5,369 nt of DNA. It comes from a bacterium (lineage in GTDB: Bacteria; Blakebacterota; Blakebacteria; Blakebacterales; Blakebacteraceae). Location: assembly GCA_025774205.1 (NCBI GenBank), contig JALGWK010000138.1:1-5369 (forward strand). The letters are read 5' to 3'. Below, in pieces: positions 54 through 4,816 of this stretch. Position 1 is the first letter of the stretch. Each line of letters opens with the position of its first letter. Under the pieces are notes generated by a model. The model made no database searches and was not told the DNA's origin. It saw nothing but the letters and a program-made list of their open reading frames with translations. Position numbers and translations under genes: made by a program.

Positions 54-1634
54 CTACCCCAGGATCGCTTCGACCTCTTTGGCGTCCACCTCGGTGATGT
101 AATCAAGCCCGGTGACGTCGGCGGATTCCCGCGTCAGGCATGCCACATCATCACGCGTAATGACGTCGAGGTTGAACTTGCGCTCACCGGCCATGATCTG
201 CTGGACACCCTGAGCCAGTCGGCTGAAGTAGGTGTAGACACCCATCGCGCCGGTAGGCATCTCCTTGAAGCGCTCCGCACCCACCAGCTCCTTCAGCTCG
301 GGAGCCGTGATGAACACCTCTTCGGGAGTGGTCCCGAAGCGGCCCACGAAGACGGGCATTGCGTTGTCGGCCATGTGCTTGCCAAGGGTCTTTCCGACCA
401 TGGCAGCCGCCAGAGGTGAACGCGCCATCGCGATCAGTTTGGTGTACGGCGCACCCAGTGCCAGTCCCTTGAAGATCATGTCCTCGAAGGTGAATCCACC
501 AGCAAAGGCGAGATCGGGTACGTACTCACCCTTCTCGTCCAGGTGTTTGGCCATCTGGTAAGTCAGGCTGTGCAGTTCCACGATCGGCACACCCCACTCG
601 TTCATCATGCGCCAGGGGCTCATGCCGGTTCCACCTCCGGCACCGTCGACCGTGAGCAGGTCGATTCGTGCCTGGGAGGCCCACTTGACCGCTCTGGCCA
701 GGTCGGCGGGACGGTAGGCACCGGTCTTCAGGGTGACACGCTGAGCGCCGGCTGCCCTCAGTTCCTCGACCCGGGCCATGAAGTCTTCCTCGTTGACCAT
801 GCCGACCCGGCTGTGCCGCTCGAACTCGTGGAAGACACCGGACTTGAACGATTCGACAACCTTGGGATCGGTGGGGTTGGGGAGAACCACGTAACCACGC
901 TTGTAGAGCTCCTGCGCCTTCTCGAGGTTGGTGATCTTTACCTCGCCGCCGATGTTCTTGGCGCCCTGTCCCCACTTCAGCTCGGCTGTCTTGATACCGA
1001 GTTTCTCGATCGCGTATTCCTGAACGCCCAGTCGGGTGTCTTCAACATTCCCCTGCAGGATCACATCACCCTTACCGTCAATCTGCCACTCCTGGTAGGG
1101 CCTGATCCGGCTTTCCAGACCAGGTGAGTTGACAACCCGACCTTTCTTGATCTCCGACTGCATGTCCATCCCTACCACGTTCTCACCGATAGTGATAGGT
1201 ACGCCGTAGAGGGCGGATCCGATGGAGAGTTCGGTCCAGTTATTGGCAGCGACATTCGTCGATCCCATACCGGCGATGACGAACGGCAATCCGGCCGTGA
1301 GCTTGTTTTTGTCACCGATCTCCCGCTCGAGATTCACGTTCGGGAAAATGGCCTTGTCGCTGTCGGCTTCGATGCCATGCGCTCCGACGGCCGTACCCAT
1401 GATGGTGAGATGACCGTAATCGATCGGGTAATCTTTCTCGGATGCGGCAGTGATGATGCCGAAGGGCTGCGGGTAGATCATCTCCGCCCCTCGATATGCA
1501 GACTTGCCGATCTCACACATCCCGACACATCCGTCTATACATGTTGCGCACATGCCGGAGATGGTTGTGATTGCGTCTTCAGTGCGGTTCTTGGAAAGTG
1601 TTGCCGCACTGGCGTTGACCTTCGTGTACGACAT
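54..1634 (-). CDS. Glutamate synthase-family FMN-binding protein, stand-alone barrel subunit of the redox complex
   Basis: This 526-residue protein belongs to the FMN-binding glutamate synthase (GltB central domain) family, which has a TIM-barrel fold. Visible barrel motifs are PFVIAGMGS (117-125), ITIGENV (147-153, matching the INTGEGG region), KWGQGAKNIGG (220-230, matching IKxxQGAKPGxGG), TVDGAGGGTGMSP (328-340, the most diagnostic stretch) and an FAGG...LALGA phosphate-binding segment (377-395). It has no N-terminal glutaminase domain and no C-terminal beta-helix, so it is about a third of a normal GltB. The [3Fe-4S] cysteines that follow the barrel in GltB are absent; the only cysteine after residue 40 is C499. 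Instead there is an N-terminal C29-x2-C32-x3-C36-x3-C40 motif that probably binds an iron-sulfur cluster. The start is fixed by GAGGAGGAG, 5 bases upstream. It is the last operon gene, 37 bp after the cysteine-rich subunit, and is predicted to be cytoplasmic. Family membership is secure; substrate and reaction are unknown, and real glutamate synthesis is only one possibility. Confidence 0.93.
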   Translation of the reverse strand: MSYTKVNASAATLSKNRTEDAITTISGMCATCIDGCVGMCEIGKSAYRGAEMIYPQPFGIITAASEKDYPIDYGHLTIMGTAVGAHGIEADSDKAIFPNVNLEREIGDKNKLTAGLPFVIAGMGSTNVAANNWTELSIGSALYGVPITIGENVVGMDMQSEIKKGRVVNSPGLESRIRPYQEWQIDGKGDVILQGNVEDTRLGVQEYAIEKLGIKTAELKWGQGAKNIGGEVKITNLEKAQELYKRGYVVLPNPTDPKVVESFKSGVFHEFERHSRVGMVNEEDFMARVEELRAAGAQRVTLKTGAYRPADLARAVKWASQARIDLLTVDGAGGGTGMSPWRMMNEWGVPIVELHSLTYQMAKHLDEKGEYVPDLAFAGGFTFEDMIFKGLALGAPYTKLIAMARSPLAAAMVGKTLGKHMADNAMPVFVGRFGTTPEEVFITAPELKELVGAERFKEMPTGAMGVYTYFSRLAQGVQQIMAGERKFNLDVITRDDVACLTRESADVTGLDYITEVDAKEVEAILG

Positions 1635-1639
1635 GGTTA

Positions 1640-1648
1640 CTCCTCCTC
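1640..1648 (-). promoter_or_regulatory. Strong Shine-Dalgarno site of the glutamate synthase-like gene
   Basis: The minus strand reads GAGGAGGAG, then TAACC, then ATG (1634-1632). This near-perfect ribosome binding site sits in the 37-bp gap after the upstream gene and settles the start codon. It suggests independent, efficient translation of the catalytic candidate, unlike the ATGA-coupled genes before it. Confidence 0.8.
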
Positions 1649-1671
1649 GATTGCCCTCGAAATACCGGGCT

Positions 1672-2406
1672 CTATGCTTCAGTCTTTACTTCACTAATGC
1701 GCCCGGTAGCGGGCAGGTAATCCCCCTCAGGACGTATGCAGGTGCCGCAACCAGGCGGCATCCAGCACTGCTGATGGTCGTAAACTTCTACACAGGAGGG
1801 ACTCAGGTTCAGACAGCTGCTGCAGAGCGTGGTGTCGGCATCCGGTCCCATACAGCGTGACGAGCAGGCGGGGCAGATGAACATGCATCCGCCGCAATGC
1901 CTGCATAACGCTGAGGCTTCGTCGAACGGGGTTGTTATGCGTCGATCAGGACCACGACCGGCGAAGTCGATGGCCGTGGCCATCATCTGTTCCTTGCACA
2001 TCCTCACACACAGGCCGCAAAGCATGCAGTCCTCATGCTCGGGTTTGAATCGGGCGGTGATGACACCGTGAGCAGCGGCCAGATCCTGGATCGTCTTCGA
2101 ACCCGGGGTCGAACAGACAAGCAGTTCAAGTATCATCTTCCGGGTATCCATGACCCGCTTCGAATGGGTTCTGATCTCCAGCCCTTCCTCGCACCGGTAG
2201 GTGCACGATGAGACTACCTTGGTCCTGTCCTGGGGGCCGATCTCCACGATGCAGAGACGGCATGCTCCGTAACTGCTCAGGCCTTCATCGTAGCAGAGGG
2301 TCGGAATATCGATCCCCATGATACGGGCCGCCTCAAGGACATTCATGCCCTCATACACCTCCATCGGCAGACCGTTCATGGTGATGTTGATCACCTTCGC
2401 GCTCAT
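1672..2406 (-). CDS. Cysteine-rich NuoG/HoxU/HydA N-terminal-like iron-sulfur subunit without catalytic domain
   Basis: This 244-residue protein probably carries electrons between the NuoF-like subunit and a catalytic partner in the cytoplasm. Residues 1-80 form a plant-type [2Fe-2S] ferredoxin domain with ligands C38, C49, C52 and C68. Residues 85-97 (TRKMILELLV region) match the NuoG segment that normally leads into the His-Cys3 cluster, but that motif is lost; only C98 remains. Two [4Fe-4S] motifs follow: C127/C130/C133/C137 and C168/C171/C174/C178. The tail after 178 carries eight more cysteines (181, 185, 195, 198, 205, 214, 220, 223), giving 22 in total. No H-cluster, molybdopterin or other active-site domain follows. 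The reading frame extends 21 residues upstream, but the ATG at 2406 is preferred because it has a GGAGGT site 5 bases away and makes an ATGA overlap with the upstream gene. The fold is clear; the role is inferred. Confidence 0.92.
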   Translation of the reverse strand: MSAKVINITMNGLPMEVYEGMNVLEAARIMGIDIPTLCYDEGLSSYGACRLCIVEIGPQDRTKVVSSCTYRCEEGLEIRTHSKRVMDTRKMILELLVCSTPGSKTIQDLAAAHGVITARFKPEHEDCMLCGLCVRMCKEQMMATAIDFAGRGPDRRITTPFDEASALCRHCGGCMFICPACSSRCMGPDADTTLCSSCLNLSPSCVEVYDHQQCWMPPGCGTCIRPEGDYLPATGRISEVKTEA

Positions 2407-4280
2407 ACCCCACCTCCCGACGTAATGAGTACAGCTCCTCGCGTACAGACGTTTAAACACGATCCGCACTTGATGCAGTCCTCGGTGATTATCGTGTGCA
2501 GAGAATCCTTCTCACCCACGATGCATTCTGACGGACAGACCTTGCTGCAGGCGGCGCACCCGTCACAGAATTCCTCCAGGATCGTGTATTGGATAAGTTC
2601 TGTGCAGACACCGGCGGAACATCGATGCTCGTTGATGTGCGCCTCATACTCGTCACGGAAATGCCGGAGAGTGGAGAGCATCGGGTTAGCGGCGTTCTGA
2701 CCAAGACCGCACATGCTGGCGGTATTGACAGCATGTCCGAGTTCCTCCAGCAGCGCCAGGTGACCAGGTGTCCCCCGTCCCTCGCAGATGTCATCGAGCA
2801 GTTCCCGCATCCGCTGGGTGCCTTTACGGCATGAGTAGCACTTACCGCACGATTCCTCCTCGAGGAACTTCGTGAAGTAACGAGCCACATCCACCATACA
2901 GGTGTCCTCGTCCATCACGATCAGGCCGCCGGATCCCATGATGGTCCCTGCCTCCTGTAGAGCATGGAAATCGACCGGAAGATCGAGCATGCTTGTCGGC
3001 AGACAGCCACCGGCGGGTCCACCTGTCTGGACCGCCTTGAATTCCTTGCCGTTCGGGATCCCACCTCCGATATCGAAGACGATTTCCCTGATCGTCACTC
3101 CCATGGGAACCTCGACCAGACCGGTGTTGTTCACCTTTCCCACCAGGGAGAAAATCTTGGTTCCCGCACTGCCCTCGGTACCGAATCCGACGAACCACTC
3201 CGGCCCGTTGTTGATGATGTGGGGGACGTTCGCCCAGGTTTCGACGTTGTTGATCACCGTCGGTTTGTTCTGGAACCCTTTCTCGACCGGGAAGGGTGGG
3301 CGTTGTTTCGGTTCGCCCTTCAATCCTTCGAGAGACTTCAGCAACGCCGATTCCTCACCACAGACGAACGCGCCGGCCCCCCGGACTACCTTCAGGTCGA
3401 AATTGAGGCCGCTGCCCATGATGTCCTCACCCAGCAGTCCGGCCGTCCGGGCATCTTCGATCGCAAGCGTGATCCGTTCGACCGCCAGTGGGTACTCATG
3501 GCGGACGTAGATGAATCCCTGGGAAGCTCCGATGGCGAATGCGCCGATGCACATCCCCTCAATGACCCGATGCGGGTTTCCTTCCAGAATGCTCCGGTCC
3601 ATGTAGGCCCCCGGATCGCCTTCGTCGGCATTGCACACCAGATATTTCGGCTCACTCGGCTGTTTCTGGCAGATCTCCCATTTCTTTCCGGTCGGGAATC
3701 CGGCGCCACCGCGTCCGGCGAGCCCGGAGTCGATAACACAGGTGATGACCTCATCCGGGTTCATCTCGTCCAGAACATGCGCCAGACCCTTGTACCCGCC
3801 GATCGAGATGTAATCCTCAATATCGGTCGGGTTCAGGTGTCCGTTCTCCGCCAGGATAATTCGCTTCTGGTGCTTGTAGAATGGAACGTCTGCTTCCCTG
3901 GCGATGGCTTCATCGGTCTGGGGATCGTGATAGAGGAGTTTCTCCACCACTTCATTGTTCAGCAGGGTTTTCTCTACGATCTCCCTGGCGTCCCGCGCGT
4001 GGACCTGGGGGTAGAAGTAACCGGACGGGGTCATGGTGACCAGCGGGCCCATTTCACAGAACCCATGACAACCCGTGGGCTTCACTTCGATCTTTTCCTC
4101 CAGCCCCATCTCGGAGATCACCTCAACGAATGCATCCACCACACTTTCAGCACCGCCAACCACGCACCCTGTACCCGTGCAGATGCTGATACACAGGTGA
4201 TCTTCGCTTCTTCGCTCCACGAGAACACCGTGGAGGTCCTCCAGTTCCCCGGAGGAGCGGATTGGGTTATCCAGACTCAT
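2403..4280 (-). CDS. NuoF/HydB-type NADH-binding flavin and iron-sulfur subunit (Bfu-family BfuB candidate)
   Basis: This 625-residue cytoplasmic protein exchanges electrons with NAD(P)H through FMN. Domains in order: an N-terminal thioredoxin-like [2Fe-2S] domain (about 25-105; C34, C39, C71, C75); the NuoF core with the flavin/NADH glycine loop GRGGAGFPTG (189-198), CNADEGDPGAYMDR (216-229) and GAGAFVCGEES (301-311); a [4Fe-4S] site ESCGKCYSC (C478, C481, C484) completed by C524; then a C-terminal two-cluster ferredoxin domain (C572/C575/C578/C582 and C602/C605/C608/C612). C460, H548 or H552, C554 and C559 could form the zinc site described in HydB. Complex I NuoF lacks both terminal extensions, and the length matches HydB or HndC of trimeric bifurcating hydrogenases. 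The start has GGAGGAG 7 bases upstream and overlaps the previous gene by ATGA. Family is certain; bifurcation, and NADH versus NADPH, are inferred. No defects are seen. Confidence 0.96.
   Translation of the reverse strand: MSLDNPIRSSGELEDLHGVLVERRSEDHLCISICTGTGCVVGGAESVVDAFVEVISEMGLEEKIEVKPTGCHGFCEMGPLVTMTPSGYFYPQVHARDAREIVEKTLLNNEVVEKLLYHDPQTDEAIAREADVPFYKHQKRIILAENGHLNPTDIEDYISIGGYKGLAHVLDEMNPDEVITCVIDSGLAGRGGAGFPTGKKWEICQKQPSEPKYLVCNADEGDPGAYMDRSILEGNPHRVIEGMCIGAFAIGASQGFIYVRHEYPLAVERITLAIEDARTAGLLGEDIMGSGLNFDLKVVRGAGAFVCGEESALLKSLEGLKGEPKQRPPFPVEKGFQNKPTVINNVETWANVPHIINNGPEWFVGFGTEGSAGTKIFSLVGKVNNTGLVEVPMGVTIREIVFDIGGGIPNGKEFKAVQTGGPAGGCLPTSMLDLPVDFHALQEAGTIMGSGGLIVMDEDTCMVDVARYFTKFLEEESCGKCYSCRKGTQRMRELLDDICEGRGTPGHLALLEELGHAVNTASMCGLGQNAANPMLSTLRHFRDEYEAHINEHRCSAGVCTELIQYTILEEFCDGCAACSKVCPSECIVGEKDSLHTIITEDCIKCGSCLNVCTRGAVLITSGGGV
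2412..2418 (-). promoter_or_regulatory. Shine-Dalgarno site that decides the start of the cysteine-rich subunit
   Basis: The minus strand reads GGGAGGT, then GGGGT, then ATG at 2406. It lies inside the last codons of the NuoF-like gene, whose TGA overlaps this ATG (ATGA, 2406-2403). This favours the 244-residue product over the 265-residue reading that starts at 2469, which would overlap the upstream gene by 67 bp and add a non-homologous basic leader. Confidence 0.75.
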
Positions 4281-4816
4281 TCCGTATCTCCTCCCGACGA
4301 CCTGGTCGCTTTTTTGATCATACTGCTGACCCTCGTCTGCTTGACCTGCCCCTTGAACTCACCATCCACGATTACAACCGGTCCCAGCGCGCAGGCACCG
4401 ATGCAGTTGACCGTTTCGAGGCCACACTCCATATCGGGTGTAGTGTTGCAGATCGTTGTATCAAGATTGAGCTGCCGCTCGAATTCGCGGAAGACCTGCA
4501 CAGCTCCGCGCACGTGACAGGCGGTTCCGGTGCAGACCGTGAACTGGTGCTTCGGGGGTGGTGTGAGTTTGAAATGCTTGTAGAACGTCACTATCCCGTA
4601 GATCTCGTTGATCGGGAACTCCAGCTGTTCCGAGATATGCCTCAGGGCGGGTATCGGCAGGTACCCGAGCGCGTCCTGGATATCGAGCAGAATCGCGATC
4701 AGTTCCGTGGAGTCTGAGTGATGCTGCTCCAGGATCCGATCTACTTCGTTCATATCCAGAGGTGGAGGAGTGATCTCTTCGACAGTGGAAGCAGACGAGG
4801 CATCAGATGCTGCCAT
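4277..4816 (-). CDS. NuoE/HydC-type thioredoxin-like [2Fe-2S] subunit (BfuC candidate)
   Basis: This 179-residue protein is the small electron-carrying partner of the NuoF-like subunit, as in complex I NuoE, HydC and HndA. A helical N-terminal part (about 22-85, with LLDIQDALGYLP at 43-54 and EIYGIVTFYKHF at 71-82) leads into a thioredoxin-like domain. The [2Fe-2S] ligands are C95 and C100 (CTGTAC) and C138 and C142 (CIGAC). C123 and C131 are additional cysteines outside the canonical four. The first 20 residues are a low-complexity Ala/Ser/Thr/Pro leader, with no signal peptide. The ATG at 4816 is chosen because AAGGA lies 8 bases upstream; the internal Met22 has no comparable site. It is the first operon gene and its TGA overlaps the next ATG (ATGA, 4280-4277), implying coupled translation and fixed stoichiometry. 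Length is ordinary for the family. Confidence 0.95.
   Translation of the reverse strand: MAASDASSASTVEEITPPPLDMNEVDRILEQHHSDSTELIAILLDIQDALGYLPIPALRHISEQLEFPINEIYGIVTFYKHFKLTPPPKHQFTVCTGTACHVRGAVQVFREFERQLNLDTTICNTTPDMECGLETVNCIGACALGPVVIVDGEFKGQVKQTRVSSMIKKATRSSGGDTE

Follow-up and report, generated by a model that had tools for sequence, protein, structure and literature searches.

The stretch analysed here is the whole of contig JALGWK010000138.1 (5,369 nt; the window) from a member of the Blakebacteraceae. It encodes a four-gene unit, BfuC, BfuB, BfuA and GLT, in which an electron-transfer module of the bifurcating Bfu family is combined with a divergent, glutamate synthase-like flavin mononucleotide (FMN) barrel protein. 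The products are proposed to form one cytoplasmic Bfu-type complex, termed Glt-Bfu, that would aminate 2-oxoglutarate with NADH and ferredoxin (or NAD(P)H). The probability of this reading is put at about 0.45. It draws on the conservation of the gene order and of the cofactor ligands, on the glutamate synthase motifs of GLT, on the recurrent exchange of one electron port and on neighboring genes of glutamate and glutamine metabolism.

Gene layout and conservation of the four-gene unit

All four open reading frames (ORFs) of the window are located on the minus strand, in the order BfuC, BfuB, BfuA, GLT. BfuC (4277..4816, 179 aa; PF01257, E 4.1e-40) is a NuoE/HydC-like [2Fe-2S] subunit. BfuB (2403..4280, 625 aa) is HydB-like, with an N-terminal [2Fe-2S] cluster (B5), an FMN/NAD domain, the clusters B1 and B2 and two C-terminal [4Fe-4S] clusters (B3/B4). 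BfuA (1672..2406, 244 aa, ATG at 2406) comprises a [2Fe-2S] cluster (A1), two ferredoxin-type [4Fe-4S] motifs and a C-terminal domain with eight cysteines, without a catalytic domain. GLT (54..1634, 526 aa) is assigned as a glutamate synthase-like FMN (beta/alpha)8 barrel protein by PF01645, by alignment and by an AlphaFold2 (AF2) model. Four-nucleotide ATGA start/stop overlaps join BfuC to BfuB (4277..4280) and BfuB to BfuA (2403..2406). BfuA and GLT are separated by a 37-nt spacer (1635..1671), with a strong Shine-Dalgarno-like GAGGAGG directly 5' of the GLT start. An earlier note, made from the letters of this DNA, had described four packed genes for NuoE-, NuoF-, NuoG-N- and GltB-barrel-like proteins with ATGA at the first two junctions; ORF calling, Pfam and NCBIfam agree. 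Its statement that GltD, glutaminase and hydrogenase domains are absent is correct for the window, in which a Pfam scan detects no hydrogenase, glutaminase (PF00310), GXGXG (PF01493) or GltD domain, but fails for GltD in relatives, as described below. No membrane subunits are seen among the genes of the window.

A search of species-representative genomes with GLT yielded at least 582 confirmed relatives, and the locus analysis used the best 80 of them. These are the closest matches (GLT identity of at least 64%), and the conservation of the unit thus describes a close clade. Its carriers include Aminicenantes, Zixibacteria, KSB1, Cloacimonadota, Neomarinimicrobiota, Planctomycetes, Acetothermia, Armatimonadota, Firmicutes (Dethiobacter, Syntrophomonadaceae) and Deltaproteobacteria as well as Thermoplasmatota, Methanoperedens, ANME-2 (anaerobic methanotrophic archaea) and Methanophagales. 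Among named relatives of the source genome, the closest are L022 (GLT 91%) and L023, a Latescibacterota metagenome-assembled genome (82%). In 57 of the 59 testable loci, i.e. those with more than 5.2 kb of DNA upstream of GLT, BfuC, BfuB and BfuA are found on the same strand upstream of GLT within 6.5 kb. The adjacency of GLT is not sporadic, and chance is far from explaining how well the four-gene order is kept. At lower GLT identity (44-61%), most of the proteins are extra copies or lack Bfu genes nearby.

Of the subunits, GLT is the most conserved, with a median pairwise identity of 70% (BfuA 58%, BfuB 55%). The subunit distance matrices all correlate, most strongly for GLT and BfuA (r 0.88, vs 0.73 for BfuB and BfuA), with shared ancestry adding to these values. 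The near-universal linkage and the GLT-BfuA correlation argue against GLT being a co-transcribed yet separate enzyme, for example a ferredoxin-dependent one, as does a BfuA that has no catalytic domain and whose eight-cysteine domain would otherwise be unexplained. Such independence would fit the 37 nt between BfuA and GLT and the Bfu-free paralogues that share the N-terminal cysteine motif of GLT, but is considered very unlikely overall.

Several loci carry additional genes. In Methanoperedens and relatives (L037:4032-5639, L082:4018-5622, L042 and L076), a second GLT paralogue in divergent orientation, about 47% identical, adjoins the Glt-Bfu operon, and Dethiobacter-type loci contain another GLT paralogue with IclR regulators on the flanks. 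Directly upstream of BfuC, eleven loci (L032:3812-4141 and ten others) encode a conserved small protein without a Pfam match, in which two cysteine-rich repeats end in a VWxCEEY-like motif. Its gene often has BfuC on one side and a sigma-54 regulator/histidine kinase pair on the other. In the Zixibacteria genome PFL53 (L031:652-2743), a glutamate dehydrogenase (GDH) gene is located immediately upstream of BfuA-GLT, at the expected place of BfuB.

The electron-transfer subunits and their exchangeable port

BfuB is matched by PF01512 (155.9 bits), PF10589 (107.7 bits), an N-terminal 2Fe-2S thioredoxin-like domain and a C-terminal Fer4 domain above cut-off. The SLBB match (22.2 bits) falls under its cut-off of 27, and the region aligns end to end with HydB structures. 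The ligands are C34, C39, C71 and C75 for B5, C478, C481, C484 and C524 for B1, and C461, C499, H548, C554 and C559 for B2, the diagnostic histidine included (aligned to NiFe-HydB 7t2r), and the B3/B4 cysteines span C572-C612. Together with the C1 ligands of BfuC (C95, C100, C138 and C142, 99-100% conserved in 67 sequences), all B1-B5 and C1 ligands are present in the protein set of the window. Across 73 BfuB, the B1 and B2 ligands are near-invariant, the exception being position 499, which is Cys, Thr, Ser or Ala. The B2 histidine, which is absent from non-bifurcating homologues (PMC9304861), is kept in 39 of 40 short and in all 33 long forms.

The top solved relatives of BfuB are NiFe-HydB 7t2r (E 4e-229), FeFe-HydB 8a6t and 9mqx_B, with complex I NuoF far behind. 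In a FastTree phylogeny of 85 BfuB cores, the window protein falls on the Bfu/HydB side, apart from the NuoF-like paralogues of its own genome (L126/L127, outgroup). Five references in this tree were transcribed from printed alignments, in which single-residue errors are possible; the grouping with HydB and Bam BfuB matches the ranking of PDB structures and bears out the HydB kinship assumed in the earlier note. An identity as complex I NuoF was rejected by the tree and by cluster content. The E/F/G-type subunits share common ancestry with NuoEFG of complex I, from which BfuB differs by its extra N- and C-terminal clusters and its grouping with HydB.

In 33 of the 73 BfuB, a GltD/NfnB-type domain (Fer4_20 and Pyr_redox_2) stands in place of B3/B4, starting near residue 565. 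The short and GltD-fused states require about 13 changes on the BfuB tree, compared with 25 for shuffled labels. Well-supported mixed sister pairs include L101/L041, L051/L080 and the window with contig C53 of its own genome. This contig (L123, 1-3162, same bin) encodes a GltD-fused BfuB followed by the start of BfuA, 76% identical in DNA. Residues 51-550 of its BfuB are 80-98% identical per block to those of the window and then diverge completely, which looks like a recent port swap in one lineage. The same B3/B4 replacement, by a DPD_II and a FAD/NAD(P) domain, is found in BfuB of Hydrogenedentota sub-type I [FeFe]-hydrogenases (PMC11406978). The GltD-fused architecture itself is therefore already known; in those BfuABC complexes, unlike Glt-Bfu, the partner is an H-cluster hydrogenase BfuA, and recurrence of the fusion in a Glt-Bfu setting was not found in the literature. 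The exchange between a ferredoxin and a GltD-like port mirrors the split of classical glutamate synthases into Fd-GltS and NADPH-GltS (PMC8097209) and was counted in favor of a glutamate-related reaction.

The same exchange bears on whether the module bifurcates at all. Glt-Bfu could simply be a glutamate synthase-like complex that depends on NADH (or NADPH), with the Bfu subunits as a mere electron wire. GltD-fused relatives have no B3/B4 (the putative ferredoxin domain), many BfuB have an incomplete B5, and in sub-type II hydrogenases loss of the B3/B4 domain is linked to absent bifurcation (PMC11406978). NADH alone would also be near equilibrium with glutamate formation at millimolar ammonia. 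The window BfuB, on the other side, has all B1-B5 ligands and the B2 histidine that is missing in non-bifurcating homologues, and a simple electron wire is regarded as unlikely.

BfuA is matched by Fer2_4 (E 3.6e-17) and 4Fe-4S families in Pfam, and its best solved match is 9mqx_A (E 4.3e-32; E 6.8e-49 in a later comparison). Among 81 sequences, 20 cysteines are at least 96% conserved, including each of the eight additional C-terminal ones (C181, C185, C195, C198, C205, C214, C220 and C223). This C-terminal domain could plausibly connect BfuA to GLT; in the AF2 model of BfuA, the Cys-rich half is of low quality (mean predicted local distance difference test, pLDDT, 67). An H-cluster domain was ruled out: the His/Cys3 site of HydA was not found in the alignment of BfuA, and the NCBIfam match FeFe_hydrog_A6 is confined to the N-terminal 203 of its 571 positions, BfuA being 244 aa long.

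Further Bfu-type genes occur in the source bin, which is fragmented (3.09 Mb, 86% complete; the window is its contig C409), and in its genus. Contig C309 (L003) carries a second complete Glt-Bfu operon, in which GLT is 90-91% identical to that of the window and a flanking GAF-type gene fragment 91% (DNA), with values of 67% for BfuB, 70% for BfuA and 49% for BfuC. Either the Bfu module was replaced in mosaic fashion and its flanks stayed conserved, or the bin combines two strains. Another BfuC-BfuB-BfuA-type cluster is found in the same genus (L159:5921-12631, contig C123 of G001) and on contig C270 (L125). FNR-like and GltD-like genes come after it in L159, where an Nfn-type Bfu complex may be encoded.

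GLT and its association with glutamate metabolism

Glu_synthase (PF01645) is the only Pfam family assigned to GLT (E 1.7e-14; 54.3 bits, cut-off 20.4), and the match covers only profile positions 185-300 of 369. Glutaminase, central and GXGXG domains were not detected by Pfam, and GLT is without an NCBIfam match. The motifs QGAK (Q223-K226) and GGTGMSP (G334-P340) are present, and the GltB motifs KxxQGAK and GGTG[A/M]SP align with invariant GLT residues. This mapping rests on a multiple alignment; with hhalign, no more than 30 columns were aligned between GLT and three GltB domains. The only invariant cysteines of GLT form an N-terminal CX2CX3CX3C motif (C29, C32, C36 and C40), gained relative to GltB.

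The AF2 model of GLT is an FMN-type (beta/alpha)8 barrel (pLDDT 85; predicted template modeling score, pTM, 0.88). It matches FMN alpha-hydroxy-acid dehydrogenases, lactate/glycolate oxidases, isopentenyl diphosphate (IPP) isomerase and, in a 2-oxoglutarate-bound structure, GltS 1ofd (E 2.1e-9). GltS ranks 6th by Foldseek and is not among the 50 VIA-align matches listed. A phmmer search of PDB sequences with GLT found no match, and a profile search found only spurious designed triosephosphate isomerase (TIM) barrels. The fold does not single out GltS among FMN barrels; as judged from the Pfam match and the QGAK/GGTG motifs, the sequence does.

The genomic surroundings give further indications. 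GDH genes are located inside the fetched flanks of 15 of the 80 Glt-Bfu loci, compared with about 0.4 expected for 1.5 copies per 3 Mb (a survey gave about 1.4 copies per genome). NCBIfam places the four GDH-like proteins tested in GDH families, with scores under the strict equivalog thresholds for three of them. In G040 and G215, GLT paralogues without Bfu genes are clustered with CarA/CarB and GAF-ANTAR regulators; one cluster additionally contains HisH, GuaA, PyrG and PurF and the other GDH. Some proteins of these clusters were identified by Pfam and others by reading the sequence. The GDH neighbors and the Bfu-free paralogues next to CarAB point to glutamate/2-oxoglutarate as the probable substrate of GLT. 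The earlier note had placed the third redox couple on GLT with an open substrate; this part can now be made more specific, and the complex and its bifurcation we infer, as that note did. Elsewhere in the genome of the window, contig C484 (L124, 2136-3596) encodes another GltB-like FMN protein, identified by sequence reading and a PF01645 match, with an N-terminal rubredoxin-like domain and a rubrerythrin-like gene downstream.

A different 2-oxo acid, an imine or a hydroxy acid as the substrate of an otherwise real complex would be compatible with the strong divergence of GLT, for which Pfam covers one third of the domain and NCBIfam none. It would also fit fold matches in which lactate/glycolate oxidases and IPP isomerase rank as high as GltS, the loss of the [3Fe-4S] cysteines and of the glutaminase, and the presence of GDH in most carriers. 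The invariant GltB QGAK motif, the GDH neighbors and the position of Bfu-free paralogues within glutamine/glutamate clusters point away from it, and it is judged rather unlikely.

The nitrogen donor of GLT is probably free ammonia, because 37 of 49 carrier genomes have no GATase_2 gene (PF00310); full-length glutamate synthase (GOGAT) is found in three and a separate archaeal-type GATase in nine. Glutamine synthetase (GS) is present in 12 of the 13 carriers tested. Replacement of GOGAT was demoted as GLT-specific evidence, since the absence of GOGAT in Zixibacteria is phylum-wide and independent of GLT. The genome of the window and a congener, both incomplete bins, contain only a GDH-type protein of about 1,000 residues.

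Proposed reaction and relation to known systems

In the proposed complex, BfuBC would hold the NAD(H)/FMN site on the FMN of BfuB and, in the short form, a ferredoxin port at B3/B4; in the GltD-fused form, NAD(P)H would replace ferredoxin as input. Electrons would merge in BfuBC and pass through the [2Fe-2S] and [4Fe-4S] clusters and the eight-cysteine domain of BfuA to the N-terminal cluster of GLT and on to the barrel FMN. There, the 2-iminoglutarate that arises from 2-oxoglutarate and free ammonia would be reduced to glutamate, with NADH and reduced ferredoxin consumed together (confurcation).

The glutamate couple has an E0' of -121 mV. Arithmetic from this value gives about -328 mV at a Glu/2-oxoglutarate ratio of 100 and 10 uM NH4+, which is too negative for NADH alone and reachable by the NADH/ferredoxin mean of about -390 mV. 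The potentials of NADH and ferredoxin are -280 mV and -500 mV, respectively (PMC9304861). At low ammonia, the couple is thus located between NADH and ferredoxin, like the mid-potential third substrates of other Bfu enzymes, and confurcation makes sense for synthesis. In the oxidative direction, as part of amino acid fermentation, electrons from glutamate would be split between NAD+ and ferredoxin. Reversibility is a property of Bfu enzymes (PMC9304861), the carriers are anaerobes by lineage and GDH is encoded nearby, but an extrapolated ammonia concentration of about 0.1 uM or less would be required at Glu/2-oxoglutarate 100 to reach the NADH/ferredoxin mean, and the paralogues adjoin biosynthetic amidotransferases. 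Glutamate oxidation is therefore held to be highly improbable.

Several points weigh against the proposed confurcating amination. With ammonia at its standard or a millimolar concentration, the glutamate couple is so positive that confurcation would not be required. The B5 cysteine at window position 39 is a glycine in most GltD-fused and in 15 of the 40 short BfuB. Given this frequent loss, the cofactor set of Glt-Bfu is less invariant than claimed for the Bfu family, and the complete B1-B5 and C1 rule fails across the group as a whole, in which the long form has another domain instead of B3/B4 and the B5 cysteine is often missing. In GLT, the [3Fe-4S] cysteines of GltB (CQMMRVCHLDTC in L151) are missing from all aligned sequences, and the nitrogen donor is a guess because there is no glutaminase domain. 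GOGAT/PF00310 is found in none of 132 genomes of the Zixibacteria phylum (E 1e-30 cut), whether they carry GLT (58) or not. Finally, GDH is also present in 27 of 30 carriers, and it is not obvious why they would need another enzyme for glutamate formation.

Among known systems, Glt-Bfu most resembles Type 2 of the Bfu family (such as Wor-Bfu and Bam-Bfu; PMC9304861), with which it shares BfuB/BfuC with an FMN domain, B1, the B2 histidine and the C1 ligands, a non-catalytic BfuA with A1 and two [4Fe-4S] clusters, and an extra subunit for the third substrate. It differs in the glutamate synthase-like catalytic barrel, the eight-cysteine extension of BfuA and the GltD-like module that takes the place of B3/B4 in many members. 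With GltBD and Fd-GltS it has in common the FMN synthase domain (PF01645, QGAK, GGTG) and an input of ferredoxin or, via a GltD-type module, NAD(P)H. In contrast to these enzymes, GLT would receive its electrons via BfuABC; it is devoid of the glutaminase, central and GXGXG domains and the [3Fe-4S] cysteines, and has gained its N-terminal motif. The putative F420-dependent glutamate synthases of ANME archaea (Chadwick et al. 2022, PMC9012536) are likewise an anaerobe-specific rewiring of electrons to glutamate synthase-type subunits, but with F420 (FrhB-like) input instead of NADH and ferredoxin through BfuABC. The word 'glutamate' is absent from the main text of the Bfu paper (PMC9304861). 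The combination of Bfu subunits with a glutamate synthase-like protein was not found among later papers that use the Bfu terminology or by targeted searches of the searchable literature, a scope that leaves out most subscription journals and supplements.

Seventeen BfuB clades are without an assigned function (Schut et al. 2022, PMC9304861), and Glt-Bfu provides a concrete proposal for the third reaction of one widespread gene cluster, given the number of GLT relatives. Somewhat more tentatively than the amination itself, Glt-Bfu may represent a new route of ammonia assimilation in uncultured anaerobic bacteria and ANME archaea, namely an NADH/ferredoxin-confurcating, ammonia-dependent glutamate synthase with a repeatedly swapped low-potential port, in which ferredoxin and not ATP would serve as the drive for micromolar ammonia. 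The natural plug-and-play exchange of this port is useful for working out bifurcation in Bfu enzymes. If the proposed reaction is true, electron bifurcation would have glutamate formation as a further coupled reaction, and energy-limited anaerobes would gain a cheaper route than GS-GOGAT for scarce ammonia.

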